Shown here: in pieces, positions 1 to 49,186 of the stretch | How positions within the stretch are numbered: the first letter of the stretch is position 1 | Layout of the letters: each line of letters opens with the position of its first letter | DNA from: Polytrichum commune | Lineage: Eukaryota; Streptophyta; Polytrichopsida; Polytrichales; Polytrichaceae | DNA: 64,000 nt | Reading direction: 5' to 3' | NCBI GenBank assembly: GCA_950295325.1 | Contig: OX485807.1 | Coordinates: forward strand, 7,901,001-7,965,000 | Translations under genes and position numbers: made by a program | Notes under the pieces: model-generated | The model's input: only the letters and a program-made list of their open reading frames with translations | Told to the model about the DNA's origin: nothing | Database searches by the model: none

Positions 1-299
1 TGAAATTTTTTGTCATCTTCATTTTTCATAGTAATTGTTTTAGTTGAATTCTGTGTCATTCTTGGTAGAAATGGTATGTTTTCTAGAAAAATATGATCAT
101 CAAATTTGGTCATGATATTTTACCCCGTAATAGATATCATGTATATCTACCTTCCAAAAAAATTTGAGAAAATTTTGACCCATTTGGTGGATGCAACTTG
201 GCAATGGAGTGACCTCCCCTGGAACATCATCAAATGTGAACCTCACGGGTGAACACCCGTGAGCCATATAACAAGTAAATTGGTTAGGTTTTAAAATCA
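1..299. other. AT-rich flank, no gene seen
   Basis: No coding region can be supported. The segment runs into the first unit of the palindromic tandem array that begins at about 300. Confidence 0.4.
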
Positions 300-1040
300 T
301 CAAGGAGGGGCATTTGGAAGAGGCCTCGGATCCGAGGCCTCATTTTTGAGTCAGGTTGTGTGCTTGAAAAATGAAAATGTTAGGTTCATTTTTGAATTCT
401 CTCGGCCATTTTCTGTAGTATGTATTTCATAAGGAGGGACATTCGGAAGAGGCCTCGGATCCGAGGCCTCATTTTTGTGTCAAGGTATGTGCATGAAAAT
501 TTAAAATATTATGCTCATTTTTAAATGCGCTTGGCCCTATTGTTTTGGGTAGTGCATAAGTAGGTATTTTGTAAAGAGGCCTCGGATCCGAGGCCTCATT
601 TTTGTGTCAAGGTATGTGCTTGAAAAATGAAAATCTTATGTTCATTTTCGAATGCTCTCGGCCTTTTTATTTTGGGTAGTGAATAAGTATGTGTTTTGGG
701 AAGAGGCCTCGGATCCGAGGCCTCATGTTTGTGTGAATTTTATGCTAGAAAAATCAAAATGTTATGTTCGTGTAAGATTGCTCTCGGCCTTCTTGTTTTG
801 GGTACTACATGAATAAGAGGTTTGTGAAGAGGCCTCGGATCCGAGGCCTCATTTTGGAGACAATGTATGGGCTTTAAAAGTCAAACTGCTATGTTCACAT
901 AACATTTCTCTCGGCCTTTTTCTTTTGGGTAGTGCATGAGGAGGAGGTAGGAAAAGAGGCCTCGGATCCGGGGCCTCTCATTCGTAGGTAGGTTAGTGCT
1001 AGAGTTTACCACTTGACTTAGCATTCGGCCATTACCATTT
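300..1040. repeat. 127-bp tandem array carrying a 22-bp compound palindrome (6 copies)
   Basis: A 22-bp palindrome built as GAGGCCTC, then GGATCC, then GAGGCCTC starts at 320, 449, 576, 703, 829 and 956. Spacing is 129, 127, 127, 126 and 127 bp. The first five copies are perfect and the sixth has one substitution (G at 971). The spacers are related to each other (for example ctcggcc and ttttgggtagtg recur), so this is a tandem repeat whose palindrome is far better kept than the rest. The array ends about 170 bp before the start codon at 1150. Inference: it covers the promoter and 5' leader of the methyltransferase-like gene and could be its control region, a protein-binding array or an element terminus. 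Confidence 0.93.
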
Positions 1041-1149
1041 GTAGTTTGCTCTCGGCCTTGTATTGTTTTTGTGAGGATTTGTTTCTTTATAGTTACGAAG
1101 TTATTGACTTTTCTTTGTGAAATTCTCATTGTCTCCATGTTCTTAGGAT

Positions 1150-4100
1150 ATGGACTCTTCACAGGTTGCGCAATCGCAACCCCAATCTGGAGAGGATGTT
1201 GTTCTTGCGGCCCCTGCGGTTGAAGTTGAAGCTGTGCAGGTTGAGAGTCTAAATTCGCAGGGCCCATTACAAGTAGAGGTGAGTTGGATAGTTGTTGAGT
1301 AATTTGTTGAGCAAGTTTTTTGAGTTCTAGCTTTCTAACATGGTTTTACTATTTGTGTTTTTGTTAGGCTCTCGCAATGAGCGAAGATGCCGTTCAAGCA
1401 GTTGCCGACACGGATCCCGTGGTGTGTGAGCTTGAGCTTCGGAAATCACAAAAGGAGGACTCCATTGGTGTTATCCAACGCCTCCGGATTAAGCCAACAT
1501 GTAAATCCCGCTTATCCATTCCTTTGTGCCGCTTGAGAGCCCTCCCTCTCGTCTGTCCTATAAGTGAGGTTGAGGTGCAGCGCTTGGAATGTGAATTTGT
1601 AATGGGATACCGAGAGGGTGATCGGGTTCTTTACGTGTCTGCTTTCAACGACGTTCTCGTGGACCTCCTCATTCCCCTTGGCATTATGGCCTCTTGGAGC
1701 CCTCTCTGGCAAGAGGCCTCCGCAAAATTTGACGCCAAACTCAAGGAGGATCCGGATCTTGCACATTTCGCCGGGAAGATGTTATTCGTCTGGGAAGGCA
1801 ATCATCGTCTCACCGCTTGGTGGAGACACATCAATAACCACCACGCCGATGACAAGAGTTGGCATATCTCGGTGGATTGCATTGTTGTTGACCCTAGAGG
1901 ATACACCGGTGTATTTCTCAATGCCATGAGCGACATTAATTGGTAAGCTCACTCATTTTTTTCATTCATTTTTCATTTTTGTTTCAATTTTTTTCCATTC
2001 TTTTCACCTCACGTTCCTCACATATTTTCTCTCAGGTCAACCGAGCATGATTATGTCAAGGCAAACATTCCGGCCAAGCTCCTTCGAATCCGCACTTTTG
2101 GAAGGTTAGAGTTGTCCACCTTCAAGGATCTCATATCGCCATCTGACTACAAAGCATGCGAGAAGATAAAGGAGAGTCGTCCAACTTGGTACACCTTGAC
2201 CGCGGATGTGTTCGTTAAGTTTCTTTACAAGGTATGGTTTGTGCATTCAATCATTTAGAACTTCCAACATAGACAATTTCTATGCCGATTATATGAACTC
2301 ACAAGATCATTTCTTGCAGACAGACATTTCGGCTCAAGCAGACCTTGCAGTGAGGCATTACCGTGAGACCACACCTGTTGCAGAGAGGTCGGCCACTGAG
2401 ATTTGGAATGTTATGACCAAAGCCCAGGAGAGGACAATCAAAAGTATTCGGGCCCGTTCTTTTGAGAAGTACATATCCGTTGCACACCCTGACAATGGAG
2501 AGGATTTCTTTCATGAGGTACTCTTTTGAACTCAAATCACTCTTGAACGCAATTCATCCAAATCACTCTTCAACTCTATTACTCTTTTGAACTCAAATCA
2601 TTTTTATTTTGTGCACAGATTGACCGCCATTTTAATGAGTTCTCTTCGACGGACATGACAATTGAAAAATTGCAAAAAATTGTCACATGCCCGGTCGAAC
2701 CTTCGTTCAAAGCTAAGTGGCTTTACTGGTGGAACGCCCCCCTTCGTGAAAGATTAGATAACAAGTTCCCCGTCGACAAGCCTATAAGGGAGAGGGCTTT
2801 GGACGACTGGCTACACAAGGCGTCCTTCTGGGCTCAGGTAAATCCATTCCTCGGCCTTCTTCATTTTTATTTTCCTCTATTCCATTTATCTCATATCTAA
2901 TCATCTCCCTCTCTGCAGTTGGAGAAGGAAGTCGCGGTTGAAATTGAGACCTTAGAGGAAAGCCTCTCCGTTGACATTGATTGGGACGCATCAGAAACTA
3001 TCTTGCGCCCTCGTGAGTACGTTGATCATTGGCGGATTGTCCTTTGGGACAAGGCCTTCAAACCTTACCTCAGCGATAAGCCTGACATCGCCTTTGCCAA
3101 AGGTGATAATCTCTTGGAGTTCGAGGAGGGGGCTCTCGCTATCAAGCGTGTGGCCTATCGGTAATACATCTATCCTCCACTTTGCACCTCTCCTTAATTT
3201 CATTTCTTGCTCGTTTTCTTGGTTTTCTTACATTCTTGTTTTGTCATGTAGGTATATCATGAGAGAATTGGTTGTGAAGAATGCATTGGCCTCATCTTCC
3301 TTGCCGGACTACCTCTCGGACTGGGTGAATATTTTTTCTAGCCTCTGCGTGTATACGACCGCGCAAACAAACAAGTTTTCCGAATTGCACTTGCAAGGTG
3401 GTGGATGGTACTTGGATTGTGCTGCAGGATTTGTCCCCGGGGAAGAGAAGGCTTTGTTTGCTAGCCTTGTGGGTAGTGCTCCGGATGATAACATTGTTAC
3501 CTTGGAGGAGCCTGACATCGTTGAGCTTCCCCCTCCTCCTTCTAAGGCACCAAGGAGAAAGAGCAGAGCAAAGAAGACCGCCACTCAAGCATCTTCCCAA
3601 GTTCTCATTCGGTCTGCTTCTAAGACCCCAGTTGAGCCACCCACCCTCCCGCACAGTCCATCTATCGTTCCCTCCGTTGCTCCCTCTCTTGCCCCCTCTG
3701 TTACTCCATCTGCATTTCATCCACAATTTCTTGCCACTCCATCTCATAGTGGCACTTCTCTCCTCTCTTTGCCTCGCAAGAGGAAGGCCGCTCTCTTGGA
3801 TACCAGTGCCACCTCTTCGGATGCCCCTAACACGCTTTCCCTCATCGAAAATGTGGACATGGTTCAATTAATGCTGGATTCCGAGGTTGCCGGAGGTCCC
3901 CTCCCCGCATATACCCGCATCCAAGAGTTCATTGCCAAGGTTTGTATACTTGCCTTTGTCAATTCTCAATTTTTTTTCCTTTGCTTTGCTTATTTCTTTC
4001 CTTCTTATTTTCTCATGAAGTTTCAATTGCAGGTTGGGGCAGGTCGTTCCCGTGTGAACACCTCGACTACAACTCACAAGGGCCTCGATTTGCTCTTCGC

Positions 4101-5348
4101 CGACATTCCCGAGAATTTGCCGGTGCCGAACATCTCCACCGATGTTCCTGCTTGGAACAAGCTCCATGAATCATACTATGAGTGTATTTTTGCATTTGCG
4201 AAATCTAACCTCTATGATCATGGTGTCCTTGTTCTTGCCCATTGTGCGAGTGCCAGTGTTTCTAGGAGTATTTTCGATTGGGCACACACTTATGACTTCT
4301 ACGTCGCGGAAGATTGGTTTGGAATGAATGATTTGGACCTCCAATCTCCCGTTGTTCCCTCTGGAGTGGTAAGCAAGTCTCCCTCTCTTCCCCTTCCGTA
4401 TTGCTTATCATTTCAATTTCAATTCAATTTCAATTCCATTTCATTTCAATTCAATTTCATTTTCATTGTTGCAGACTCGGAAGTTCAGCATCAAAGTTCT
4501 TGTTCGTGTTAACTCCGTTCTTAGAGTGCGGGAGGAGGCCATACAAGAGTATGGTTACAACCTCCAACGAGATGGATGGTTGAATACCTTCACCGATGAG
4601 AAGAGCCAGGCGATGCGCAGTGATGGGGTACCTTGGCGAGGTGCCCATGAGAAGCATCCTATTTTTTTTTCCATCCTTCTCGCTACTCTCACCGACAAGA
4701 ATGATGTTATTATGGATTGGCAGTGTGGTGTAGGTACGCCTTGTTTTTCAACTTCATCCTTACTTTGAATTTTCTATTATTTTTCCTTGACTAGTTTCCA
4801 TACTAACATTTTACCTCTCGTTGCTTTAGGTGGTTCGATTACAGCATGTCGCTCCCTTGAGCGGCATATTGTGGCCCTTGAGAGTGACCCCGTCATTTTC
4901 AATTCACTCCTACTCCCCATGCGTGATCCCCAGCCTGCGCGTATATCTCGCTCAGTTACCGCACCGTCTACATCTATCTTTGATCCTCCTCAAAAGATGA
5001 CCAAGAGGGCATTCGGATTCCTTTGTGCGTAAGTTTGCTTTTTATATTTTGCCATGTTTGCCTTGATTTCAAATTCTCATTTTCTAGTGTCATCATGTTT
5101 CTAATCATTTTGCTTGGGTGTTTAGAGAGCCAGCGGAGGTCGCAGTCATTCGTCGAGACATGTTTTCAAGTCCTCCGAAGCCGTTTGAGCTTCCCCCGTA
5201 TGCTAGTGCAATGGCGGATTGTTTTGCGAAGGCGGAGTCCCCATCTCCTCCTCGCGTTCGTCATTTCTCACGTGGGACACGAAATCTTTTCTTGTTAGAA
5301 GCAAATGAGGGTGAGGAGAGTGATAGGGAATGTTCTCCAAGCCCTTAG
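1150..5348 (+). CDS. ParB-like / DNA amino-methyltransferase-like fusion protein (11 exons, 1087 aa)
   Basis: Exons 1150-1278, 1368-1942, 2036-2231, 2320-2517, 2619-2837, 2919-3160, 3252-3939, 4033-4368, 4475-4733, 4830-5028 and 5126-5348 join at GT/AG sites in one open frame of 3264 nt. Near residue 185 is WEGNHR, the hallmark of the ParB/sulfiredoxin fold. The middle third is unrecognised and is followed by a Pro/Ser-rich linker with two basic clusters (near 618-630 and 694-699) that could be nuclear localisation signals. The C-terminal third has FADIPEN (771-777) in the place of a DPPY motif. It then has DWQCGVGGS (942-950) and an acidic pair, E965 and D967, as in a SAM-binding motif. Catalytic motif before SAM motif is the beta-class order of N4-cytosine/N6-adenine methyltransferases. 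ParB-plus-methylase fusions are known in bacteria and phage. The DPPY site is degenerate, so activity is uncertain. The start is the first in-frame ATG; exon 1 is Gln/Val-rich and the least certain exon. Confidence 0.8.
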
Positions 5349-5403
5349 TTTATCATTTTGGTTTTGGAGATTATAACTCCGTTTGTTGTTGTTATCCGGC
5401 TTT

Positions 5404-5409
5404 AATAAA
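5404..5409 (+). terminator. Polyadenylation signal AATAAA
   Basis: A canonical AATAAA lies 56 bp after the stop codon of the ParB/methyltransferase-like gene, followed by T/G-rich sequence. Position and orientation fit that gene's 3' end. Confidence 0.55.
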
Positions 5410-6325
5410 AGTTGTGTGTTGGTTTTATTTTTGATATCCGGCGCAAGTTTCATTCTTTCTCTCCATTATTTCATATTCATAATGTCAATCCGCATTGCAT
5501 TCTTTATTTTTTCTTCATCATTCGGATCTCTTAACTTCTAGTCACAAAACAATCTAGCTCTCGGCTCTTAGTGTGAGATCTTAGTTATAGGGGGACCATA
5601 CTTTCTATTAGTGTGGATGGTTTATTTTATGGTTGTGCACACTAATCACATTGGCCGTCTTCCAATCCCAATTGCTATATAGCAATTGGAAGTTTTGTTT
5701 GGCACGCGAACATAACCTCGTCAAACTTTTTAAATTGAACTTCATGTTGTTCTCAAAGAGTCGGCACGTCACCTCAAAAATTTCCAAGAGGATTCTAAGG
5801 TTGGACTTGGGGGATTTGTCTTTGAGGTCTTTGGCTAAGCTAAGGACTGAATTGGAAGGCTGTTATGGTGCGACGGAGTTTTATGGCATGTTCTTTGGAT
5901 CATTTTACCCATATTGGACATGCCCGGCAGATAGGGTGTAGATGGCCCTAAACTAGAGTATATAGCTATTTTAACTAACTACCCATTTTTGTAAGTCTTG
6001 AGGTTGGCTACATTTTGTTAACCAATAAAATATTTTGTGTATGGTATTTTGATTTCAATTTGGTGACGTCGGCCTTAATTTAATATGATACATTTGAAAA
6101 CATATACTATAAGATGTTTGATAATAAATGCAATCTTCCACGCCTATAGGATCCGTTGGTTTCTCAAACAATTATGGGTTATTATGTCCACGGGAATGGG
6201 GGTACCTTTCCAAATATAGAATTCAAACTATCTCTAATTCCACGGAAATAGGCACTGCTTCTCCTAAAATTACCCAACAAAATCTAAATTTTCCGCTCTC
6301 CAATCTCCGCTCACATACTTGAGTT
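5410..6325. other. Gap with one unassigned ORF
   Basis: A 102-codon open frame (5633-5941, +) has no recognisable domain and no supporting splice or codon signal, so I do not call it a gene. The rest is AT-rich intergenic DNA between the methyltransferase-like gene and the second palindromic array. Confidence 0.35.
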
Positions 6326-6430
6326 TCCCACCCATTCCCAACCTACAAACCTTATACCCAATCTGAAATGATACCGCAGCCATTAGGCCTCGGATCTGAG
6401 GCGTTCTCCAAGTGGGACTTAGTCCACCTC
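6326..6430. repeat. Left part of second palindromic array, degenerate copy
   Basis: A diverged copy of the compound palindrome (6384-6405) sits in a unit that is nearly the same as the one at 8700-8815. The unit shares cccattcccaacctacaaac and aatctgaaatgataccgc. The array is split by the solo LTR at 6431-8675. Subtracting the LTR and its 5-bp target duplication, this palindrome and the one at 8760 are 126 bp apart, the same period as in the upstream array. Confidence 0.85.
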
Positions 6431-8675
6431 TGTGAGCCCAAAATGGTGCCCACATGTGGTGATTAATTCTTTGAAACCAATTTTAGTTAGACTTTGAAGT
6501 GTTATGATTGTTCACAAAAATATAAAAAGAGTGAAGTGTGGTGTGGATTGAAGTTTAGACATTAGGGGGTATTGTGTGATTGTTTCAAGGTTTAAGCCAC
6601 GGGTAGATCACTTAGTGCATTTTAAAAACGACGTGCGGCATAATATAGAGAGGATTAAAATCATTTGGAATAAAAATTATAAAGGAATTCCAAATAATGA
6701 AGGGGCCATTAAATGTAGACAATCCCATTAAAAGTAAGTTAGATGGACATAAAATGTGGGCCATTATTTTTTTGTAAAATTAATATAGGGGTTGAAGATA
6801 AGGATCCTAGAAGGTATGTTTAGTATGCTATGTAAATGGGTTTAGGACTCACGGGGATGGATGATAATTGGGATTTCCGTCTATCCAAAATTACTTAAAA
6901 GGAATATAGAGTACAAAAAATTGCAGTGACCTGGACAATATAAGTAATGGAAGGGTGCAAACAAATGGACCATTTTTGAAATTTAAGTAATTATAGGGAG
7001 GCTTTAATTCAACCCTTGAAGGTAAATAGCCCCAAAACCAAAAACCCCCAGCCGCACGTGGTGCACAAAAATGCCTTAGAGTGACCTACCCGTGGTTTAA
7101 GCTCAATTAGAGAATGCCTTGATTATGTGAGTAGGGGGCAAGGTGAGGTCCGCGGGTTAAATGCCCACATTAGGATCCACCTTGTTAGTTTAGGAAGGGA
7201 AAGGCCTTGTGGATGGGATGAGTCCCTACTTAGGAGGAAGGGATTAAGGGGTTGTGATTGGAGGTGCTAATCCTCTCACCCTATCCTTACCTCATGATCT
7301 CTCTCTCTCTTTGCTACTTAAGGCTTCCCTCTCTCATTTTTGCTCTCTCTCTCAATCTCTCTCATGTGGAGGGAGCCCTTAGAATGATTAGAAAAACACG
7401 TGTGATTAGTTGTTAACTTGATAAAATTAGTAGGAGGATAGGTTAATTATGAGTTGATAGATTAGAGGAATGTTAAGTTAATTACTAGGAGTGAGAATGG
7501 TTTGTAGAACTCATTAGACTTCTGTCCAAGCACTGCTGGAACTGGGTTAGTTGCTGGAGCAGCCGAAGGGCGTGAACTGGGCTAGTTGCTAGAGCAGCCG
7601 AGGGCCTGAACTGAGCTAGTTGCTGGAGCAGCTGAGGGCCTGAACCGAGCTAGTTGCTGGAGCAGCCGAGGGCCTAAACTGGGCTAGTTGCTGGAGCAGC
7701 CGAAGGGCGTGAACTGGGCTAGTTGCTGGAGCAGCCGAGGGCCTGAACTGAGCTAGTTGCTAGAGCAGCCGAAGGGCCTGAACTGGGCTAGTTGTTGGAG
7801 CAACCGAGGGCCTGAACTGGGCTAGTTGTTGGAGCAACCGAGGGCCTGAACTGGGCTAGTTGTTGGAGCAGCCGAAGGGCGTGAACTGGGCTAGTTGCTG
7901 GAGCAACCAAGGGCCTGAACTGAGCTAGTTGTTGGAGCAGCCAAAGGGCCTGAACTGGGCTAGTTGCTGGAGCAGCCGAAGGGCGTGAACTGGGCTAGTT
8001 GCTAGAGCAGCCGAGGGCCTGAACTGAGCTAGTTGCTAGAGTAGCGGAGGGCCTGAACCGAGCTAGTTGCTGGAGCACCCGAGGGCCTAAACTGGGCTAG
8101 TTGTTGGAGTAGCCGTGGATGGTTGGGTCTCAAGAAGTAGTGGGTAGTAGGGAGCATGCTTGGGTGACCAAAGCTTAGCTCAAATTGAGTACTATCACTC
8201 AAACTAAGCATAGGTCAAGTTAGGCATTTTAGATTATTCTAGCACATATGTAAGTGTTAGATTTATTAGGCTAATTAGTGTGAGGCGTGGCTTGCTAGTA
8301 AATGTAATTGGGGTGGATCATCAAGAACAGTGTTTTTAAACACTTGCATCTTCTTGGTCAAAATAAGTTACTTGTTCAAGAATGGAGAATGTGGTTGATC
8401 CTAGCAATGGCAAGGCAAAGGAAGTAAAGATTAAGGGTGCTAGGGGAATGTCTTTACGGGGATGCGTGGCCAAAGCCGCGGGATGGACCTTTGAGAAGGC
8501 TAATGCCTCATTTGTTCAAGAAACAAGTATTAATAAAACATCATGAACTTTAGAACTAGAAAGTTCACTGAGATGAAGGATATTTCTTATATCATTGAGA
8601 TTTGATACTACACATGTGATTCACAAACCCATCATCCGGACTAGGACGCTTAAGGGTGGTGGGTTTGGCCTCACA
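6431..8675 (+). mobile_element. Solo LTR (2245 bp), perfect 5-bp target duplication
   Basis: The element begins TGTGAGCCCAAAATGGTGCC and ends TTTGGCCTCACA, so the ends are a short inverted repeat with TG/CA termini. The flanks are ACCTC at 6426-6430 and ACCTC at 8676-8680, a perfect target-site duplication. No gag or pol is inside. An AATAAA at 8532-8537 near the right end suggests + orientation. A related, shorter copy is at 13630-15248. It contains CT-rich DNA at about 7290-7360 and a minisatellite. The full-length parent is not in the window. Confidence 0.9.
7520..8118. repeat. Minisatellite of 34-35 bp inside the solo LTR
   Basis: About 17 copies of a unit containing gggctagttgctggagcagc followed by cgagggcctgaact are arrayed with few changes. 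The array accounts for most of the extra length of this LTR over its relative at 13630-15248, which has a shorter related repeat at about 14515-14690. Confidence 0.9.
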
Positions 8676-8868
8676 ACCTCAAATGACAACCTGTAACCAT
8701 CCGAGACCCATTCCCAATCTACAAACCTTATACCCAATCTGAAATGATACCGCATCCATGAGGCCTCGGATCCGAGGCCTTCTCCAAGTGGGACTTAGTT
8801 CACCTCAAATGACAACCTGTAACCATCCGAGACCCATTCCCAACCTACAAACCTTATAAGAGAACGTG
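8676..8868. repeat. Right part of second palindromic array
   Basis: The compound palindrome is at 8760-8781 with one change at the last base. The unit text cctgtaaccatccgagaccc occurs at about 8690 and again at about 8815, giving one full and one partial unit of about 126 bp. Together with 6326-6430 this forms an array that was intact before the solo LTR landed in it. Confidence 0.85.
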
Positions 8869-10508: not shown

Positions 10509-11312
10509 CAAGGTTGTCTATTGTGTCGTGACAGAGGCTAATCCCAACATAATGTCGTGGCGTCACGACACGTATCTGTCACGACATTATGCCGGATGCC
10601 GTCTTTATCCTGACGAACTTGAATTTTACCGTATTTTTTTGTGTAATTACATTACCCCAATCAGGACACGTAGGATTTACGATGTCCACGTATGGTGCCA
10701 TGTCAGCAAAGTAGAGGTAAAGTGGGAAAAAAATTACTAGCGCCCGTCCCCCCCCCCCCGTTCCCCCCGCTCCCTACGTTCCCCTCCCCCATCCGGCACC
10801 CCATCCGGCCCTCATCCGGCCTCCATCCGCCCCCCCCCCCTTAATCCGAACCTGGCCCCCCCCAATCCGAACCCGCCCCCCCCCCCCCCAATCCGGCACC
10901 CGGCCCCACCCATCCAAACCCCCCCCCCCCATCCGAACCCGGCCCCCCCCCCCAATCCGAACCCCAATCCGGCCCCCATCCGGCGTTCCCCCCGTCCGCA
11001 TCCGTTCCCGTCCCCGTCCGCTCCGTTCCCCTCCCCCCCACACCCTCATTTGTCATATTTTACTACTTTGATTTTAACAGAATGATAAACACAAAGGCAA
11101 AATGATTTACCTGGCAAGGGAAATATGCACATCCACGTCGGATTTTTCTGCCACATTGGATGCCACCTTGGCAAGAAGGTAAGTATTTTACCCACCCTAC
11201 TAACTTCCCCCTAGTATGACCCTACCCTATTATGTCATGACGGAGGGGTCCGCCCCGACACGACACGTCATGACGTCATGACGGTGGCAGGACGTCGCGA
11301 TAGACAACCCTG
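10509..11312. mobile_element. Non-autonomous hAT-like element, 804 bp, 8-bp target duplication
   Basis: The flanks are GATGTACT at 10501-10508 and at 11313-11320. The termini are CAAGGTTGTCTATTGTGTC on the left and, inverted, CAGGGTTGTCTATCGCGAC on the right. An 8-bp duplication and CA(G/A)GG ends are typical of the hAT superfamily. No transposase is present. The element splits an exon of the zinc-binding pseudogene, whose frame continues on both sides. Confidence 0.88.
10744..11040. repeat. C-rich repeat tract inside the hAT-like element
   Basis: Runs of 4-12 cytosines alternate with aatccgaaccc and catccggc units over about 300 bp. On the minus strand this gives many closely spaced G-runs, which could form G-quadruplexes. 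The open frames through it are Gly/Arg-rich artefacts of composition. Confidence 0.85.
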
Positions 11313-11734
11313 GATGTACTAAACCAAGACACAGCACACCATGGGTGGTAGACATGCCTGCAGCTACACACTATAATGTCATTGTAAGAAAATGCGGAAC
11401 CACACAAAACGCAGTTTGTTACTTTTAGGAAATCACTATCAAGTTGCTCAATCCCCTGTGAGTTGCACATGGGGTGGGGGTGCAATGCCAATCCAGGCCG
11501 TCCACTTCGCAAATTTGACAATTGCTTCGCCAGTAAGGATTGTTGACTCACGAGGAATGCCTCCCTCCGCACCAACTTGTCATGAAGAGTAGCTTGAAGG
11601 CCCTGGTCTGCAACAATGGCGTTGTACTCACCCTCTGTCCTCTTGAAAGTAGCCTCGTAGAAGTGGAAGGTCATCTGCATCTTCGACAACTCTTGCAACA
11701 GGGAACAACTCTCGACCTTTCCCCGTGAGAACGG

Positions 11735-12734
11735 TGAGAGGTTTGGCAATCAAACTAAAGTTTTTGACAAACCTTCTATAATAATTTGCCAATCCTAGAA
11801 ATGCCCGAAGTCGTGGTACATCATTAGGTGCGGGAATTTTCTGCAAAGCATCCACCTTCGCCTGTTGCACACCAAGACCGCCAGAAACAATTATATGGCT
11901 TAAATATTGCAATTGATCATGGAAAAACTTACATTTGCCATGATGTAAACAGAGTCCCCACCGTTGTAGTCGTTCAAATACCGCTTGCAAATGTCTCACA
12001 GGATCATGTGGACTATTACTAAAGATGATAACATCATCAATATAACATCTAGCAAAGGCTAAACCAACCAATAATTGGTCCATCACCCGCTGAAATTCAG
12101 CTGGTGCATTCTTGAGACAAAATGACAAAAATTTCCAATGATAAAATTGATCCTTGTCATCTTTATCAATTCCCCAAAATACGATCTTCACCCGATCACC
12201 CAACAACAAAGGTAATTGATGATAACCAGACCTCAAATCCAGAATGCTAAAGATTCTAGCAAATCCCAGTGCATCAAACAACTCTTCTGGCATCAGCATT
12301 GGATATCGATCCGACTTGGTCTTGTGGTTGACTGGACCATAATCACCACACATCCATTTTTCCGTCCAGTTGCCAAAGATATCTTTCTTTGAAGGCATAA
12401 CCGTGGCACAAGCATACTCTCCATTGGAGAGTTCAATCAATTCTACTGCCAATAATTTTTGTCATCGAATTTGAACACCCAACCTTTCAGATGTATTAAG
12501 TCTGTACGGCCGTCTGAAAATAGGATGGTCGTCCTCGAGTTGAATACGAACAGGTTTACCTTTATATCCTTCAAGATCATGAAGACTAAAGGCAAAACAA
12601 TTACAGTAAGAGCGAATAAATGCTTGTAATTTTCGTGCTTCGGCACCAGTAAGTTTTGGTCCCACTTCAATTGGCCAATCGTCAAACTCCATGGTTTCTT
12701 TCTTCATAGAAGGATTGCCACTTGGTGCCAGCAC
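11735..12734 (-). pseudogene. Reverse transcriptase domain, truncated
   Basis: The frame runs from 12734 with one in-frame TGA near 12464. In order it shows FRRPYRLN, the palm segment FSILDLRSGYHQLPL, the NAPAEFQRVMDQLL helix, the catalytic YIDDVIIFS box, and the thumb FLGLANYYRRFVKNF. These mark a Ty3/gypsy reverse transcriptase. RNase H and integrase should follow but are missing. Confidence 0.92.
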
Positions 12735-13116
12735 AGCCTGTGATTGCTAGTCCGTGGAGAGAGCAACACCTTTGCCCCCATCATCTGCACTTGAATCCAA
12801 ATACGTATCTTCTCCATTATAATTAGTTTGTGTAGCTAAATAACTACCCTATATATGAAGTGTCACCAAGAAATAGAAGTGAAAACATTTTATGTGCCTC
12901 CAACTTCCTAAAATCTTGGGCCAAAACCGCAAAAACACGTTGGGCTCGAAGCTCTTCCGCAACATGTTGTTTCAAAGAAAATAATCCCTCGGTGTCATTG
13001 ACCTTCATGTGATCCTTGGATTGCGGCTCCATTGCCCCCTTACCATTGTTCTCTGCCCTCAAAGGAAGCAATTGGTCATCCATTCGTTATTGAGCAGCAA
13101 GACAAATTCCAATTAT
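12735..13116 (-). pseudogene. Linker between DNMT and reverse transcriptase
   Basis: A minus-strand frame (13083-12844) contains FSLKQHVAEELRAQRVFAVLAQ and no recognised domain. It is probably the spacer of the polyprotein. Confidence 0.45.
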
Positions 13117-13629
13117 TCACACAATGCTATTAAGATCCATAGTTTGTCCCAATACGAAACGTCTCTGACCTTCCTGAAGCCCATGAGCAGCCGTGGTGCC
13201 TGTACGAAAATTTATAGCACGTTCCCGCTCATCTGCCGTAGGCTCATCATGAGTTTGGGATTTTAAATTCCAAACCATGTCTGGTCCACGAGATCGAAAT
13301 GCAAAAAACCGTGGATATGTCACAAAAGTAGGTAGTACACCTCTCAAAATTCCCACCATGTTAATTAATGCAAATGGCAAGGTGTCACCCTTGGTAACTG
13401 CCAAAGAAACACGATGATAATTTAAAATGTCATCCACCTTGCGATTCATAAGGCGGAGAATGCGGGCGATCGCCGCTGAAAGCACCTAAGGTGATACCAA
13501 ATTGGTCTAAAACCAACGAGGCCGATGCGCAAAGGATCCCAAGGATGCAGCATCCAGAAATGTTGAAGTACCCAAAATTTGGTTAATGTAGTTACCATCC
13601 TTCACCACTTTATGTCGTGTATCACCCAG

Positions 13630-15248
13630 TGTGAGCCCAAAATGGTGCCCACATGTGTTCTTAACCCTTTGAAACTATTAGAAGTTATGTTTTGATGTTT
13701 TATAATTATTCACAAAAATATTAAAAAAATGAGGCTTGAGTGAAGTTATGTTTAGACCTTAGGTTGATTAGAAGTTTAGCAGTATGAAGAAAATTCCTTA
13801 GTTAGGTGAGCATAGTGTGTGGTGAACCAAGGGTGGCTACTTGAGTTAAATGTTTGAATTATGATCTATGTTGTTGTTTTAAGAGTTGAAGGCTTAAATG
13901 ATAGGATGAGAGCCTACAAAATAGGAAATGATCAAAAGGTTTATCTTCAGCCTTGGGAATGCTCACCTACTCCCTTAAAGGCTTAAATGATAGGATGAGA
14001 GCCTACAAAGTAGGAAATGATCAAAAGGTTTATCTTGAGCCTTGGGGTGCTCACCTACTCCCTTGAAGGCTTAAAGGATAGGATGAAAGCCTACAAAGTA
14101 GAAAAAAGATCAAAAAGTTTCTCTTGAGCTTTGAGGGTGCTCATCTACTCCCTTTCACCTCACTATATAATCCTCACTCTCCTCTCTCTGTCTCTCTCTT
14201 TCCTTTGTACTCTTTGGCACCTCCACATGTTATGAGTGTGGGTGTGTGGGAAGCAAGAAAGGAGCACGTGTGTGTGCAAGGTCTCAAGGTGAAGAACCAA
14301 GATTAATTAGCCTTGAAGTTAGTTGACACTTGTTAGGAGTAGTCTTTGGTTTGAGGCATTTAGAGCTTAGCTCATTGTGTTCAACTTATAGAATTTAGAC
14401 TTATATCATTTAAATTTATAGTGTTTAGAATTATAACATTTAGAATTGTAGCAACTAGATTTATGTTAGATTTATGTTAGATTTAAAGCATTCAACCTTG
14501 TAGATTTTAAGGCGGAGGCCACTTAGGCTAGCTGTTGGTTTGAAATTGGAGGCAGTCGGCTTAGCTACTGGTTTGAAGTTGGAGGCAGTTAGGCTTAGCG
14601 GCTGGGTTGAAGAGGGAGGCTAGTTAGGCCTAGCGGCTGGGTTAAGTAGAGCCAGTTAGATTTAGCGAATGGGTTAAGGAGGAATCTAGTTCCAACTAGT
14701 TGTGCACTTCCGAGTCTAAGCTAGATCGACAAGCTAAGTTACTACTAGTTAGTGAGGATGGTTAATTAGACTAATTAGTTAGGCTAGAGGGTTAAGCTAG
14801 TTGGGTTAGGCTAGTTGGTTTAGTGGTTGCATTATGAGATGAAGTTGGGAAATATTTGTGAAGAACTTGTGGAAGAGGAGGTAATGTTTAGTTATATAAG
14901 TGTTTTCCAACACTTGTATTAAAACTTATATGCCTCATAGAATGAACACATCATAGCCTTAGCGAGGTGTCATGCACCAGTGAAAAATCGACAGCCATAA
15001 CCAAAGTTGCAAGGGGAAAATCATTGAAGGCATGCGTGGCAAAGGCAGTGGGGTGGACTCTGGAAAAAGCCAAGGATGTGTCTATGCACGAGGTTCACAC
15101 TAATAAAATGTCATGATTTGAATTAAGTTAGAAACTCATCAAGATATAACGTACATCCCATGTTACCACAAGTTGTTATGTTACACATGTGATCTCCAAA
15201 CCTATTACCCGGACTAGGACGCTTAAGGGTGGTAAGTTTGGCCTCACA
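13630..15248 (+). mobile_element. Second solo LTR of the same family (1619 bp), inserted in the DNMT domain
   Basis: It begins TGTGAGCCCAAAATGGTGCC and ends GTTTGGCCTCACA, the same termini as 6431-8675. The flanks are CCAG (13626-13629) and CCAAT (15249-15253), a decayed target duplication with one or two changes. An AATAAA is at 15102-15107 and a TATATAA at 14164-14170, followed by CT-rich DNA, which suggests the LTR promoter and polyadenylation site. Removing it restores the DNMT reading frame. Confidence 0.88.
13885..14160. repeat. Three tandem units of about 88 bp in the solo LTR
   Basis: The text gaaggcttaaatgatagg recurs at about 13888, 13978 and 14066. Each is followed by a gatgagagcctacaaa-type segment and by gctcacctactccc. 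The array ends just before the TATATAA at 14164, so it lies in the U3-like part. Confidence 0.85.
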
Positions 15249-15866
15249 CCAATAATGGCACATTTTCAAAAATGTACCCTGGCGGAGTTGATTGGTGGGT
15301 AAACCACCATTGTGTCAATCGCATCAAATCCGCAAACAAACTAGACCTAGGATCATCCAAACTCTGGCCAGTTCCTGCCCGTGAATAGCCTTGACAAGGC
15401 CATCCTGCAATAATTAAATCCACGTGGCCCAATCTTCTCAAATTCTCATCACTAATTACAGTGACATCGTGAGGAGTTGACAACAACATCCAAAAATGGC
15501 AGAGGCTGACAATTGTACGGGGTACCTCAACAACAATTATTGGATGTGGTGTCAGACGGCTCTGTTGGCTGCATATCCATTATCCACATGAATATATCGC
15601 CTAACTATAATCCCAGCCTCCAACACTGCCGCCAAACTTATGTCAATGCCCCCAAAGATTTCCACAAGGACAATACCTTCAGGTGGTGGTTGCCAACGAA
15701 TGGGTTGAGCAAAAGAAAATGACGATGACGTTGGAGGTGTCTCTCCAAGCCCCAAATCCGCTACAATGTGTCGACAATGGTCGGATAATTCCTTAGGAGT
15801 ACGCCATGGTGGAGGTGGATCCTTGAAATGTCGAGCAGAAATTTGTAAAGATGGCAAAATTTGTTG

Positions 15867-17252
15867 TTATGTTGCATTACAAGAGTAGTCCAATGTTTCC
15901 TCCAACAAAACTGGAACACAAGGCAAATCCACAACTGAACCGCTACAACCAAATATTGCCTCCGCAACCGTAGTCATAGAAGTAGTTGCAAATGCTACAG
16001 GTATAAATACCTTCTTGCCATCACCAGAAGGCCATCCCGGTCTAATCCATGCCTCTTCAGTCCAATTATCCAAACCAAAGCCAAGTGGATAAAGAGCTTG
16101 CTGACCAACAAGTATATCATAGTTGGTAGCATTAGTAACAACACACTTCATTGACAAATGAATATAGGTAGGTCATGCCCCCACATTAAAAATCAAACGT
16201 AGAGGTGCCTTGGTGTAACTTGTTGCACGTTCAGTGCCCCCTACTGAAGTCACAATTGTGAATGGACAAGGATCTAAGTTTGCTAGCGTCAATCCAAGAC
16301 TGTCAGCAAATCCTTTGCCAATCATAACCGGTTGAACACCAGAATCCATCATAACTCTCAGTGGTCTAGCACGAATAGCAGGAATATCCGCGCGTGAAAC
16401 GACAAACAAATATTTATCGTTCATCAGCCATACAACTCCAAGTTGCAAATTATGCCGCTCGCAAGCAGGCCTTGCAGAAATATCTGCAAGATATGCCGCT
16501 CCCGCTGCATAATTCGAAAATGACGTGTCCACTGCTGAAATTGTTGATGGCGGAATATCAGTGTGCTTACCAAAAACAATGATTGCTGCATCCGCAAGGC
16601 TCGCTCGCAAATTGGCTAAGTCCTCCACCTCCTCAGCTACAGGTACGTCAACAATAGCTTGGGATACTTGAAGGCATGACAAATCCGCCTTACCTTCTAA
16701 CATTCTCCCAGCAAAATGGAAAACTCCAGCAAGCTTGAAATCCGGAGCCATCAACTCCGAACCCGAGAAAATTGGCATATGGAGAATTTTATATGCCAAT
16801 GTCTGCGTAACATCCTTCGAGATGGAATCCCCATCTCTCAAAGGTACAGGGTTTTTAACCCCAACAACAGTGGTGCCTCCCAATCCAAATGAGAGAGATA
16901 AACGTGCTTGACCAACTTGATCCGCTGGTCCGGCATGGCGAGGATGTGACACCTCGTTGCTACCACCACTTGTAGAAGCCACCGCATCTGCCAATGTTTG
17001 TGATCGAGTAGAAGCCGCAGCCACCACCTCTCCAGACGCCCCAAACATATACATGTCCGAACCCGAGGTGCCACGACCTGCATGCGGCTCAGAAATTTGA
17101 GCAAAAGATACAGAAGATTTGAGTTTTTGCTCAAGCTCTGCCACCTTAGCCTCAAGACTCTGCTCCCTTGGAGATTTGCCAGTGACATTAACTGGCAGGC
17201 CGCATCTCATGATGAAGTTGGAAACAACGATCCACGTCGTGATTAGTGCCAC
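15867..17252 (-). pseudogene. Retroviral-type aspartic protease region
   Basis: The frame begins after the zinc knuckles with a short coiled-coil segment (LEAKVAELEQKLKSS) and a low-complexity Ser/Gly stretch. It then has the active-site segment MMDSGVQPVMIGKGFADSLGL, of which DSG is the catalytic triplet. An in-frame TGA at about 16173 and a TAA at about 15867 interrupt it. Downstream, in the same frame, YDILVGQQALYPLGFGLD looks like the C-terminal part of the protease fold. The protein would continue directly into the DNMT domain. Confidence 0.82.
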
Positions 17253-18420
17253 TACAATGGTTACATTTCAATTGTCTCTTCTTAGAATTGTCCCCTGTCT
17301 TTACTAGTTCTATCTTTTGTTTTAATTTTCCCAAAGGCTGGGTTTTCTTCTTCTTAGGACAATTGGGATCATTCTTCGAATGACCAGCTTCTCCACAACC
17401 CCAACAATGCAAAATATTTTGTTCCTTAACGGGTTGAGTCTCAGCTAAACTACTAATAGCTGTGACAATTCTTTTTGATTTCGTACTCTCTGTCATTCAG
17501 GATACCATGTCTGTGGCATCGTGTTGACAGAGAACCCGATCACATCTCTCAACCACGGCAAACGCTTGTGCAAGCGTAGCTCTGCCTTCGTAGTCGAGGA
17601 TAATCCGAGGTGATGCCAAATCAAATAACCGCTTGTCAATCTTAGACAAAAAGATTTTGACAAGCTGACTCTCAACAAAAACACCTCCCGACTCAACAGC
17701 AAATCGTGCGAGTCGCGTATACATGGTCCGTGGAGTGTCATCCTTCTCTCGGCAGAAATCCTGAATGCGCTGCATCTGGTCTCGCCGAATTCCACCATAC
17801 TCCACCTCCAAATGTGCGACAAATTCAGCAAGGGGATTAAATGGAGGTGGTGGACCAACAGCCGTCAATATTGCCTATGTAGCACATGCCATCCGTGAAA
17901 GGGTAGCCGTGCTACTGCCAGCCACTATTGGCCCAAGTGGCAGTTCTTTGTCTTTTGACTCCTCCAATGGTTCCTCCTCCTTTAAGGTGGGTGGAGCTAA
18001 GGTGGCAACCGCCCCATCTTTAAGGGCTGAAATAAGCTCAACCCGGGCCTCCCAATACTGCTCTACCTCTCGAAGTTGTCGCTGATGACCCTCTGTCCAG
18101 CGTTCATAAGTTTGGAGTGCCTCATACTCCAAATGCTGAGGCAGGAGTTCAAAGGCATACCAATCATTGAAATTGGAAGACCTTTGACATTTCTCTTTAA
18201 TCCAGGTACGAAACCGGAGTTTCCAATCGGGCAAGGAAATGCCCCCAGCTCGACCTGAAAACCGATCATGCACTAAACCGTGGTGATCGTCCTCCATTTC
18301 GTCGAACGTGCCGACACTCCAAATCCGAAGCCTACTAGTAGTGTCCAACGCCGAAATAGGCTCAAAAGCCTCGTTGGTATCTACCTCTGGCTCAAGATTT
18401 GTGGTATGCACGTCCTCCAA
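17188..18420 (-). pseudogene. Gag polyprotein with two CCHC zinc knuckles
   Basis: One frame runs from ATG at 18420 with two in-frame nonsense codons (TAG at about 17875, TGA at about 17497). A capsid-like helical region (IFLSKIDKRLFDLASPRI) is followed by two zinc knuckles, CWGCGEAGHSKNDPNC and CNHCSGTNHDVDRC. The second has the classical C-x2-C-x4-H-x4-C spacing and the first has two extra residues before the last Cys. A frameshift near 17200-17250 separates gag from the protease frame. Confidence 0.85.
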
Positions 18421-19160
18421 GTAATTTGGTGATGGAGATCGATCATATCAGCTCCTAGTTTGCACCATAAAATAATCACTTGAGTACCTGCAACTATCTA
18501 CAAGGTAATGGCAACCTGCACCTGTTGCGGGCTATCTAAATGGCAATCCCTTGCCAAATGCCAAGTGTTTATTTATGCCCCTAGAATTCCAAAATTGTGC
18601 AAAGGTTTCGAGGTTGGTAATTAAAATTTTAAAAATCAGCGTTGAAAATGCTAATTTCCAAGGTGATTATGGACTCCAATCAACAAACTAATTGCACCAA
18701 TGGACTTCTAGGAAGATTTCACACAAATTAGGCTCAAATTTCACTCCGTTCGGAGTTAATTTGCTCCCAAAAACAAAAATCAGCATTGAAATTAATAATT
18801 TCAGCAATGATTTCGAATTCCAATCAACAATCCAATTACACCATTGGACTCCTTGGCAAATTTCACACAAGATAGGCTCAAATTTCACTCCAATCGGAGC
18901 TAGTATGCCCCCAAATTTGAACCTCAAAGTTTGTGAGAATTAAATGCCAAGTTTGAAAGGTGAAAGTAAAAATGTAAAAATAAAAATAAAACTATAAATA
19001 AATAAAAAGAAAAGAAGAAGGGGAAGGCTTACCTGGCCTGGCTGGCGCCCGCCCGGCCCGGCCCGGCCTGCGACCGCCCGTCCCAGCACCCCACATAGAA
19101 GTACCCCTCCATAAAAGGGTGACATCACTTTTTTTTTGGACGATGTCACCCTTTTCTCAC
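18421..19160. other. Retroelement leader or LTR remnant with a 145-bp duplication and a hairpin
   Basis: No coding region. Two related copies of a segment containing ttggactcc and aggctcaaatttcactcc lie about 145 bp apart (18660-18790 and 18805-18925). At 19115-19128 AAAAGGGTGACATC pairs with GATGTCACCCTTTT at 19141-19154. Between them and the duplication is a GC-rich gcccggcccggcccggcc tract near 19045-19070. It may be the 5' end of the element, but no target duplication was found. Confidence 0.45.
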
Positions 19161-26262: not shown

Positions 26263-26830
26263 TTTGAGGCCCTTCATGGGATTCCTCATATTACAGAAGC
26301 AATTGATGAATATTACATTTCAATTTCTGCACCTATAATTGGAGAAGAAGATTATTATTGTTGAAAGTCACTTCATTCATATTTATTATAAAATTGTGTT
26401 AATAAAAAAATTGTGTTTTGGGATTACGAATTTGGATGGGCACGAAATATGAATGATTGGATATTATTTCAACTAACATAAGTTTAAAGGGATTGCATTA
26501 AAGTTAAATTATTTCTTTATAATCAGATTGGAGATTGTGCATATCCAATGCACTCATGAATTTACAACTCATTCAATGGTTGTGTAGAGGATTTAAAAGG
26601 TTATAAAGCAAATTGGAATTTTATTCAAAGTCCTCCTCGCATGTGTGTAGAACATACTTTCGGGATTATAAAGAAAATATGGAGAATTATTATTAGAATG
26701 GTTGATATACCATTGTGGCATATCATTGATATAGTTGCTACATATATTGTGCTACACAATATGTGTACATTTGGCAAGGACGAATTTGATATGGAATGAA
26801 TAGAAGAAACATAGAAAGAATTGAAATGAC
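26263..26830 (+). pseudogene. PIF/Harbinger transposase relic (DDE superfamily)
   Basis: One continuous frame, interrupted by several stops (TGA at 26362, TAA at 26389 and others), reads ALHGIPHITEAID, EEDYYC, LHSYLL, FWDYEFGWARNMNDW, IGDCAYPM, CVEHTFGIIKKIWRI and IVLHNMC. This series is characteristic of Harbinger-type DDE transposases. The Asp of AID, the Asp of GDCAYP and the Glu of VEHTFG are the likely catalytic triad. Most stops replace Trp, Arg or Gln codons, consistent with point decay. No Myb-like partner gene was seen nearby. Confidence 0.85.
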
Positions 26831-31345: not shown

Positions 31346-34300
31346 TTAATGCTCTCCTTTTGGCTTCTTGTTTGGTGGGGGACCCATGCTTCCAGCATCA
31401 GATTTGCGCTTGATGCCCAAAAAGTGAGCAACCTGAAAACAACAAAGCAGCAAAAAAGATTAACCACATATAAGGGCCAGGTCACAATGTTTCAAGCATG
31501 CCTTACTTTACTTCACATGTAGCTTCTCCAGCTCGTCAAATTTCCCACAATTTGGACTGCAAGAGCAACCACCTCCTAAACTAAGTTACAGTTAGTAGTA
31601 TGGTTGACAGTTCATAGCTAGAGTAAAGACATCAAGCACTTGCCTCAATGGAACTGTCTCACTGCCTTAATGGAACACTCACTAGCTCATTGAGGCAAGT
31701 GCACTCCATTAACATCTCTCACTTGCCTCAATGGAACATGTGAGGAGATTCAATATACAATACTCCGAGAAATATAAAGTCAGTATTCTGAAGCATGACC
31801 ATAATGTATTTCCAGCTATCAGCTCAGATATATACTCACCTTCTTATCACCTAACATCGGTGTCAAGCTGCCAATGTTTTTATTGTCCCCTAGCATGGGA
31901 GTGAGACTGCCCACAGGCTCCTTCTCCACAGTAGCAAAACCATTTCTTGGATCACTTGTTTGCCTGAACCAACAAAACAAACCATTATTTACTAAAGTGA
32001 GGTTGCAATCCCCAAGTCAATCTTATAGTATCTCATATTATCTGCAAGCTTCATGTAAGAATTTAAATTTTGTAAGATGAGGTGACAGATGGAAGTGTTG
32101 TTGATTCAGAAGTCAAGGTCTGAAATTATGCTACCTAATTTCATAGGTCTACTTTCAGTATCATGTCCTCTCTAGTAACACCCATTGTATGATGCTACGT
32201 TTGCAAATGTCAGTTAAGTACCGGTACAAAGAGACCAGTAACAATTGGATCAAATAGGTGGTTTACCCATACTTGGCACAGTGCAAACAAGAGAAATGAA
32301 GAGGTCGTCTAACCCTCAGAATCTTGTTTTGTTACTTTATGGGAAGTTCAATTGTTGGATTCTGCAACATTAATTTTTCAAGCAACCGTCGTATCTTAAA
32401 GCTCACCTACAAGTCAAACAATCATGAGCAATAGCACATTTGAGAGAGAGAATATACCCGGGTTTTATGTGGCCACTGATGACAATATAGGGTGCATGAC
32501 TCCTGGCATGGGCTTCACGAATTCGTTCCATTGACTTGAGAGGAGTATCTCCTGCATTCATCTGCTTGAGTTTCAACTCCTCCTGAAATTGCTTTTGCTT
32601 CTTTTCTTGCTTCATTTTTCCAGGTCCTTTCCCATGGAACTTGTGAGAGAGCTTTCGGAATGCCTCCTTTGGTGTCATCTGTGGAAGAGCACCATACAAG
32701 ATCTCAATAATAATCCACAACTGCCTGACATAGTCAAACACTTCCAAAGCCAAGATATTATAGATATGCCCAAATAGGAACTAAAAAGGAGTCAACAACG
32801 CAAATGATGATAAGTAAAGAAGATTTCTAGATTGTAAATGAATATAGAGCAATCAGAAGAACCTCACAGGACAGAGCAGATATACACCATGAGAGGCAAG
32901 CCTGGTAACAAGTCCTTGGCACCATAGCATCATAGAAGTATATCAATGAGGGAAATTCAGCAGAAAATAATATTGAATGAGCATATTCAAGAAGCATACC
33001 ATTCGACCAAATTCGTCAACACGATCCAGCAGGATATCCCTTTGCCCGACAACATTGTTTGATTCGTCCACAATTCCAACCAGCTTGCTCTTTTTCTTGT
33101 CCATGTTCCGGCCACCCCAATCGACTGTTTCCTTCAACGTTCCTCTTTCTTTCAGTAAGCTCAATGCTCCTGCCAAACCCCTCCCCACTGACACTTCCTT
33201 AGCATCTTCTAGGGTCTCCTCTTCCTCCTCTGCTACATTAGGGGTTTCTTCCATTTCTACATCCTTGACCTCTGTCCATCCACCTTCATCTGCTGTGGCT
33301 TCAGGCTCCTCTTCATCCTTATTATAGTCTTCTAGTTCTCCATCCTCCTTATCCTCCTCATGGAAGACGTCTTTGGGCCCAGACCTCCTAGTGAGAGCTG
33401 CATCAGGATAGAGCAGTAAACCAAATCAGTCATCTCATTGAACCTATCTATCAATAGCCCAGATCTCTTTTAGATCACATCTTACAGAAATAATGTTGTG
33501 TCTATTGGAGCCAAAAATAACTATAACCATTTGTATAGAAAGAAGTTAATATGTTTGCTGTTGCCACTGAAAACTTCAGGTTTTTCTCTAGAATTATTGA
33601 ACACATTCGGGATTGAGTTTCTTGTGCCACTTTAGATATATTTCTAATAAAACAGCACAGGTTCAGCAAGTTCATTAGTTAAGACAGGCAAACAAACTCA
33701 CCTTCATCTAGTTGTAGACTTCGGCAAAACTCGCCAGTATCACTAAAAACGAGCTTTCCATCTTCACCATCCCCACCTGCTTTGGGTCTTTCCTGCCTTG
33801 ATGCTGCCAAAACATGATCTAAAGTCAAACTTTGATATACCTTAAGGGGCATCTATGACATTCCATAACAGTGACTTTTGTACACCGGTACAACAAGAGG
33901 AGTCTACAAACAAGATGAAGCTTGATTGCAAAGTTGAATCAGCAAGGAATAAACCTGTAAACCTAACTACAAGGATCTGGCTTGAATGCCAAAAGCAATT
34001 TCCTACTTTCTGCAGAGTACTCTAGCTGCACATTTTTCTCATAGTTCCCTACATCAGTGAGTGTACCTCTCAAAGAAATTTTGGTAAACTAAGCATCAGA
34101 TTTGTACCTGCTAGACGAGCCACAACTGCTTGTGGGCCAATTGCATTTTCTGCCTGTTTCTTCAGTGCTGCTTGTCTCGCCCTTTCCAATGACTTTGCTA
34201 GAATGTCATCTTCTTCGGTATCTAAAGTAGGAACATCTTCAGTATCATCTACATCCATGGTCTTTGACTCACTTTCTTCCCTGAGTATTCTAGAAGCATC

Positions 34301-49168: not shown

Positions 49169-49186
49169 TGGAGTAGCTAGCTAAAT

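Follow-up and report, generated by a model that had tools for sequence, protein, structure and literature searches.

The stretch analysed here (the window, 64,000 nucleotides of the Polytrichum commune contig OX485807.1, C5:7901001-7965000 of a 408 Mb genome) contains on its plus strand, at 1150-5348, a gene of 11 exons for a ParB-methyltransferase-like protein of 1087 amino acids (aa), which is an accessory (passenger) gene of a 16-18 kb DNA transposon and not a host plant gene. Arrays of palindromic sites lie beside the gene and differ by subfamily of the element. The part of this account that can be read from sequence, namely the gene and its element, the predicted ParB fold, the profile relation to methyltransferases with an altered motif IV, the selection on the gene and the subfamily-specific palindromes, is very probably correct; the best explanation of the whole, in which the element's palindromes are in addition recognised by its own protein, is given a probability of about 0.5.

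Pairwise comparison of ten fetched genomic copies revealed one common unit, ending at window position 6329, and the left end of the window's copy was placed at C5:7890052, 10,949 bases before the window starts; the window thus contains just the right 6.3 kb (1-6329, plus strand) of a 17,278-bp transposon. All three copies readable at both ends (17,278, 16,110 and 18,125 bp) are flanked by 10-bp direct repeats (ACCCATTCCC, TTCTTTTGAT and TGTTTTATGC), and the window's target site duplication, ACCCATTCCC, lies at 6330-6339, with its second copy adjoining the element's left end, beyond the window. The right terminal inverted repeat, GGGAAACTCAAGTATGTGAGC in minus-strand reading, occupies 6309-6329, and opposite it the left end starts GGACGACACTTGTATGTGAGC (one base changed in the third copy), the two repeats being imperfect, with 15 of 21 bases alike as counted by eye. 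Such inverted repeats, with a target duplication of constant length, fit a DNA transposon of the kind moved by a DDE-type transposase. Genome-wide, 104 copies of the right end were found at up to 1 mismatch, against 0 for a backward-read control, and 78 of the best 100 of these had a correctly oriented exon 2 of the gene no more than 12 kb upstream, with 0 having one in the wrong orientation. Exon 2 gave at least 150 matches, spread over all seven large contigs and a single small one. Such a right end accompanied 48 of the 55 copies with at least 89% identity, 3 of the 12 at 70-88%, and 27 of the 83 with less than 70%. These copy numbers are minimum figures, with 150 of 1266 candidates scored for exon 2 and 59 of 2410 for the transposase frame described below. 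Because target duplications flank the element at both ends, a host-gene origin was rejected, and the plant gene proposed in the initial annotation is replaced by a transposon passenger gene, with terminal repeats, many copies and a linked transposase-like gene. One arm (C4:42-59 Mb), perhaps a sex-linked region or one of low recombination, holds some 30 of the 83 exon-2 copies that fall below 70% identity.

The transposase-like gene, found 6-8 kb left of the window and on the strand opposite to the ParB gene, is an open frame of 766 aa carrying YDGTY, GFMADSAQ and CFFHW blocks, with an NLAESVHN block in the open frame next to it. These blocks were read as transposase-like; the frame is oriented divergently to the ParB gene, and no Pfam transposase family matched it. 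At least 45 of the 59 places scored for this frame had a divergent exon 2 within 30 kb, a count made without a wrong-orientation control. Mutator-like elements (MULEs), to which VANDAL elements belong, make 9-11 bp target duplications, a rule that the 10-bp duplication fits, and the element is provisionally typed as Mutator-like by this duplication, with no Pfam match to the MULE transposase domain. Sola elements make 4-bp duplications, and membership of Sola1 was rejected on that difference.

The gene model (exons 1-6 at 1150-1278, 1368-1942, 2036-2231, 2320-2517, 2619-2837 and 2919-3160; exons 7-11 at 3252-3939, 4033-4368, 4475-4733, 4830-5028 and 5126-5348) joins without a break, as first annotated, into 3264 nt encoding 1087 aa with a single stop at the end. 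All ten introns are GT-AG, 81-106 bp long, and have a GC content of 30-37%, compared with 50% in exons. Public relatives of exon 2 number 177, and among the best 120 of them 53 terminate precisely at DINW, where the donor GTAAG gives an in-frame stop; relatives reading through intron 8 retain the exons on either side, with a varying intron sequence between them; and intron 9 is absent in P0175, P0189 and P0233, in which exons 9 and 10 are directly fused. Because of these DINW ends, read-throughs and fusions, together with the GC contrast, the eleven-exon model is taken as confirmed, above chance, by comparison of sequences. All 11 exons and their splice sites were present in 3 of the 10 fetched genomic copies, the window copy among them, and the other 7 were broken or truncated. 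Relatives were recovered by exon-by-exon queries, unlike a search with the full-length protein, in which 8000 candidates were scored and none reached E 1e-3, we think since public relatives are mostly single-exon fragments. No relative of the gene was confirmed in viral and bacterial contig collections, and a PDB sequence search gave no useful match.

Selection was measured as the ratio of nonsynonymous to synonymous substitution rates (dN/dS). Among five near copies (stops in c02 and c06 skipped), the ratio was 0.25-0.37 in 9 of 10 pairs, and 0.55 in the tenth, the closest pair, with only 14 changes. Against two older copies (two stops of L045 skipped), ratios of 0.11 and 0.14 were obtained over 736 and 733 codons, with 0.11 and 0.12 in exon 2, and 0.17 and 0.20 in exons 8-10; for two copies at ~65% identity, synonymous sites were saturated. 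Since dN/dS is low while only 3 of 10 copies are intact, these alignments indicate that the frame is kept by purifying selection across the element's history and that many single copies decay.

Exon 2 (1368-1942, plus strand, aa 44-235) has a predicted structure of the ParB/Srx fold by comparison against the PDB, with 30 of the 32 entries listed being named ParB, Noc, PadC, KorB, SerK, SbnI or sulfiredoxin, and the other 2 being unnamed proteins. The phosphate-binding box of this fold (the ParB-CTPase fold) is G-x-[HR]-R, and the corresponding GNHR of exon 2, noted at the outset as a ParB/Srx signature, is found unchanged in 95 of the 120 relatives listed, with 12 of the 120 giving no match to the search pattern. 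Profile searches of 76 exon-2 relatives touched DUF6551 of Pfam in 5 (best E 0.048) and the PHROGs "ParB-like partition protein" in 10 (best E 0.0098), the latter only a hint. Canonical ParB has a GERR motif, an ENxQR box and, following its N-domain, a helix-turn-helix; here GNHR stands in place of GERR, and inspection of the protein by eye for the ENxQR motif found none. As in bacterial ParB-parS systems, a ParB-type fold adjoins a cluster of palindromic sites; unlike in those, no ParA is known for the moss element, and its palindromes are only candidate sites.

The C-terminal part is related by profile to beta-class amino-methyltransferases. Exon 8 (4033-4368, plus strand, aa 750-861) holds an altered motif IV, LLFADIPEN, and the next helix/strand region, and exons 9-10 (4475-5028, plus strand) hold the motif X/I/II region, VIMDWQCGVG and then GSITACRSLERHIVALESD, with intron 4734-4829 in between. 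A profile of the family aligned by hhalign to such enzymes (N6_N4 type, YhdJ and 10 phage enzymes) over 198 columns at E 1.5e-6 and 90% probability, and an earlier profile, which lacked two genomic copies and a distant paralog, did so at E 8e-5 and 61%; the best of 21 reversed or shuffled controls reached E 0.14. Motif IV lies ahead of X and I, the order of the beta class. Exon 8 was matched by 107 of 118 relatives, with the motif covered in 88, and the canonical (D/N/S)PP(Y/F/W) form occurs in 0 of these 88, the window gene having ADIPEN, of the form D-[I/V]-P-E; conserved residues are D (82/88), P (74/89), E (78/89) and N (87/90). Of the DPPY-like motif described initially, the D and the third-position P are thus present, and the second-position P and the aromatic residue are not. 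Likewise, the beta-class domain was borne out as a profile relation, without a canonical motif IV or a Pfam match: the whole protein matched no Pfam family at E up to 10, 95 relatives matched no Pfam methyltransferase family at E up to 1, and a PHROGs methyltransferase was matched once among 14 sequences, at E 0.27, a hint only. The distant paralog (L039:1-3000) has equivalents of exons 7, 8, 9 and 10, with VDQPEG as motif IV, keeping D-x-P-E, and VVDCTAATG as motif I (D-x-x-A-x-x-G).

Judged by these motifs, the domain may mark DNA or only bind it. In characterised enzymes, the motif IV aromatic residue stacks on the flipped base, and its replacement here by Glu counts against the view that the element is modified, for instance at its palindromes, and thereby protected or activated, by an accessory protein with N4-cytosine or N6-adenine methyltransferase activity, with D-[IV]-P-E as a working variant. 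The profile match, the conserved D, P, E and N of the motif region, the low dN/dS of exons 8-10, the retained D-x-P-E and the D-x-x-A-x-x-G motif I of the distant paralog, and the N4-methylcytosine or N6-methyladenine (6mA) activity predicted for the Ectocarpus protein in the account of Dinatale et al. (PMC12477816) all favour such an enzyme, which we nevertheless regard as rather unlikely in this form.

Just upstream of the gene, a tandem array of 127-bp units (316-977, plus strand) carries one 22-bp palindrome, GAGGCCTCGGATCCGAGGCCTC, per unit, with six copies in the window's part of the element (320-341, 449-470, 576-597, 703-724, 829-850 and, with one mismatch, 956-977). At up to 3 mismatches, 7 matches were found in the window, 6 of them in the element, and 100 shuffles gave 0. 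There are 1903 exact copies genome-wide, and among the best 50 of these 1903, 49 lie in arrays beside exon-2 places (coordinates read by eye). At up to 4 mismatches, ten elements contained 353 sites, 25-56 in each of nine, and 6 in c06, in which shared sequence ends ~1.1 kb left of exon 2; 7 of the 10 elements were covered for 10 kb upstream. The usual spacings are 96, 117, 126-129, 179 and ~274 bp, and the arrays are internal, between the two divergent genes. Palindrome columns are 99-100% constant, compared with 59-65% in pooled 50-bp flanks and 76-96% in flanks within one repeat class, a contrast that is partly built in because sites were chosen by match to the palindrome. A second inverted repeat, CACGGGTGAACACCCGTG, was seen at 244-261 (noticed by eye) and at two places in bases 4501-10000 of L020, making three copies in the upstream stretch of the window's element.

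Outside the window's subfamily, ten further loci were read over ~3 kb upstream of exon 2, and repeated palindromes were found in 7, a single one in 2, and none in 1. The same core is present 8 times at L049 (85% identity) and 18 times each at L050 (78%) and L051 (77%), in these two mostly with one asymmetric base; CCCTCTCGGAACCGAGAGGG-type sites lie upstream of the gene 9 and 20 times at L046 and L052 (65%), and CCTCTCGATTCCGAGAGG-type sites 5 times each at L047 and L048 (64%), one variant counted. L054 and L055 (59%) have a single AATCCCACGGATCCGTGGGATT each, no more than shuffled counts, and L053 (66%) has no palindrome in this ~3 kb. Shuffled stretches contained on average fewer than 2 inverted repeats, and tandem copies are non-independent events. 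Both arms are altered together, so that symmetry is retained, and a CGG-NN-CCG core is kept except at L047 and L048 (CGATTCCG). A Dam-type GATC target, suggested by the GGATCC in the palindrome, was rejected, as the palindromes of L046, L047, L048 and L052 contain no GATC.

These arrays could instead be sites for the transposase or for host regulators, within a promoter region that both genes share, with the ParB protein unrelated to them and acting, for example, in clustering elements or silencing rivals. A position between two divergent genes suits that explanation; the arrays are however internal and not terminal, and L048 has a different palindrome though its right terminal repeat, as listed, is exact, and its transposase is 85% identical, with exon 2 at 64%. 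Nine such pairs have transposases at 84-89% and exon 2 at 62-66%. At L048, then, the palindrome does not, as aligned, track the transposase or the terminal repeat in any simple way; we consider this alternative improbable. Least of all do we favour a functional domesticated plant gene without a link to mobility, a very remote prospect despite the open frame and selection, as the gene is multicopy, lies in an element with target duplications, is tied to terminal repeats and a transposase-like gene, and for the window copy the idea is already refuted by the duplications at both ends.

A palindrome that changes between lineages as the protein changes suggests, from the sequences compared, that the element may recognise and mark its own DNA. 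By analogy with VANC, we infer a mechanism of self-recognition, in which the protein would load on its own element's palindromes in the manner of ParB on parS, would spread or cluster there, and through its C-terminal domain would mark or shield the element's DNA. The outcome would be shelter from host silencing (anti-silencing, as VANC provides for VANDAL), or help with transposition restricted to elements of its own kind. Given the altered methyltransferase motif, we think the catalytic role less certain than the targeting role. In its fullest form, tentatively held and somewhat short of even odds, a plant transposon has captured a ParB/parS partition logic of bacterial type; its protein co-diverges with long palindromes present dozens of times in the element, thereby tells self from host and rival elements and marks self against silencing, and the fixed, non-canonical D-x-P-E provides a new chemistry or is purely structural. 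If true, this would extend VANC-type transposon anti-silencing to a different fold, of bacterial ancestry; we know of no ParB or methyltransferase domain in VANC. VANC proteins bind tandem-repeated motifs in the non-coding DNA of their own VANDAL elements, with motifs differing between families (Hosaka et al. 2017, PMC5735166, in the parts available), and are described as removing silencing marks (PMC5735166; PMC10398659). Shared with Arabidopsis VANC are the accessory gene, the motif arrays in the element's non-coding DNA and a motif that varies with the protein, and subfamily-specific arrays in the element's own non-coding DNA were found here; VANC21 motifs, as given there, are nine bases in one orientation (YAGTATTAY), and those here are long palindromes. 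To such a scheme a ParB fold would add spreading from palindromic sites, by analogy with the ParB clamp model (as outlined in PMC12704722).

A fusion of this kind within a transposon is already reported from a brown alga, and what is new is the palindrome arrays beside the gene, differing by subfamily. The Ectocarpus transposon Sola1-1_Ec32 carries a gene for a ParB-like and DNA methyltransferase protein (Dinatale et al. 2025, PMC12477816), for which that paper cites green and red algal cases (Iyer 2011, Petroll 2025); in the sections available, the Ectocarpus protein is known by prediction only, and binding and modification of their own element by such proteins is presented as a possibility, at a site left unnamed. 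Likened by this published description only, the two elements share both domains (1104 aa there, 1087 aa here), an accessory gene on the strand opposite the transposase, and a large size (21.5 kb there, 16-18 kb here); the moss element is set apart by its plant host, its 10-bp duplications, an altered motif IV and the palindromic arrays, the last of which the available description does not mention for Ectocarpus. Among the literature matches listed, there was no land-plant case and no palindrome array with the gene, weak evidence of absence, as the searches were not aimed at palindromes. The large arrays next to the gene, whose palindromes differ by subfamily, now offer a candidate target, and the idea that such a protein acts on its own transposon can be put to a direct test of binding in which the subfamilies serve as specificity controls. 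The architecture was initially ascribed to phage and bacterial methylases, and the same domain combination is indeed described in phage ParB-N6_N4 methyltransferase fusions (PNAS 2025, PMC12704722); as presented there, these are phage or bacterial proteins with a Pfam-recognised methyltransferase, whereas the moss gene is eukaryotic and intron-rich, with no Pfam match and an altered motif IV. In charophytes and dinoflagellates, retrotransposons bearing DNA methyltransferases (DNMTs) are described (de Mendoza et al. 2018, PMC5890265), similar as transposons carrying a DNA methyltransferase and different, as far as that description goes, in having C5 enzymes in retrotransposons.

Right of the element, repeats at 6330-8858 were considered as its right part and, once the copy comparison had set the right end at 6329, assigned to flanking sequence; this flank holds a similar palindrome array. 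Near-identical palindromes in 126-bp repeats occur there (6384-6405 and 8760-8781) and on C5 at ~16.9-16.5 and 12.6-12.4 kb left of exon 2, and the window's element sits within that other 126-bp repeat array, near the distant paralog L039, apparently nested inside a relative. The flank also contains an insertion resembling a long terminal repeat element (6431-8675, TGTGAG...CTCACA), with a 5-bp duplication, ACCTC, at 6426-6430 and 8676-8680 (both noted by eye); the insertion includes a 34-bp tandem repeat array at 7539-8115.

Elsewhere in the window, a Gypsy-type retrotransposon (11628-18447, minus strand, reverse transcriptase E 9.9e-22), separate from the ParB transposon, includes a C5 cytosine DNA methyltransferase fragment (15247-15579, PF00145, E 7e-12), and in this resembles the DNMT-bearing Gypsy elements of Klebsormidium as described in part in PMC5890265; a RING-like zinc finger frame (11279-11749, minus strand, zf-RING_2 E 2.2e-5, under the Pfam cut-off) adjoins its end. 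A DDE_Tnp_4 transposase fragment was found at 26560-26796 (plus strand, E 6e-5, just under the Pfam cut-off), and a full-length, diverged-looking 5.8S ribosomal RNA at 37227-37367 (plus strand, 112.7 bits) is apparently an inserted piece of ribosomal DNA. Host plant genes are represented by SART-1-like exons (32943-34639, minus strand) and by xyloglucan fucosyltransferase exons (43355-49180, minus strand).

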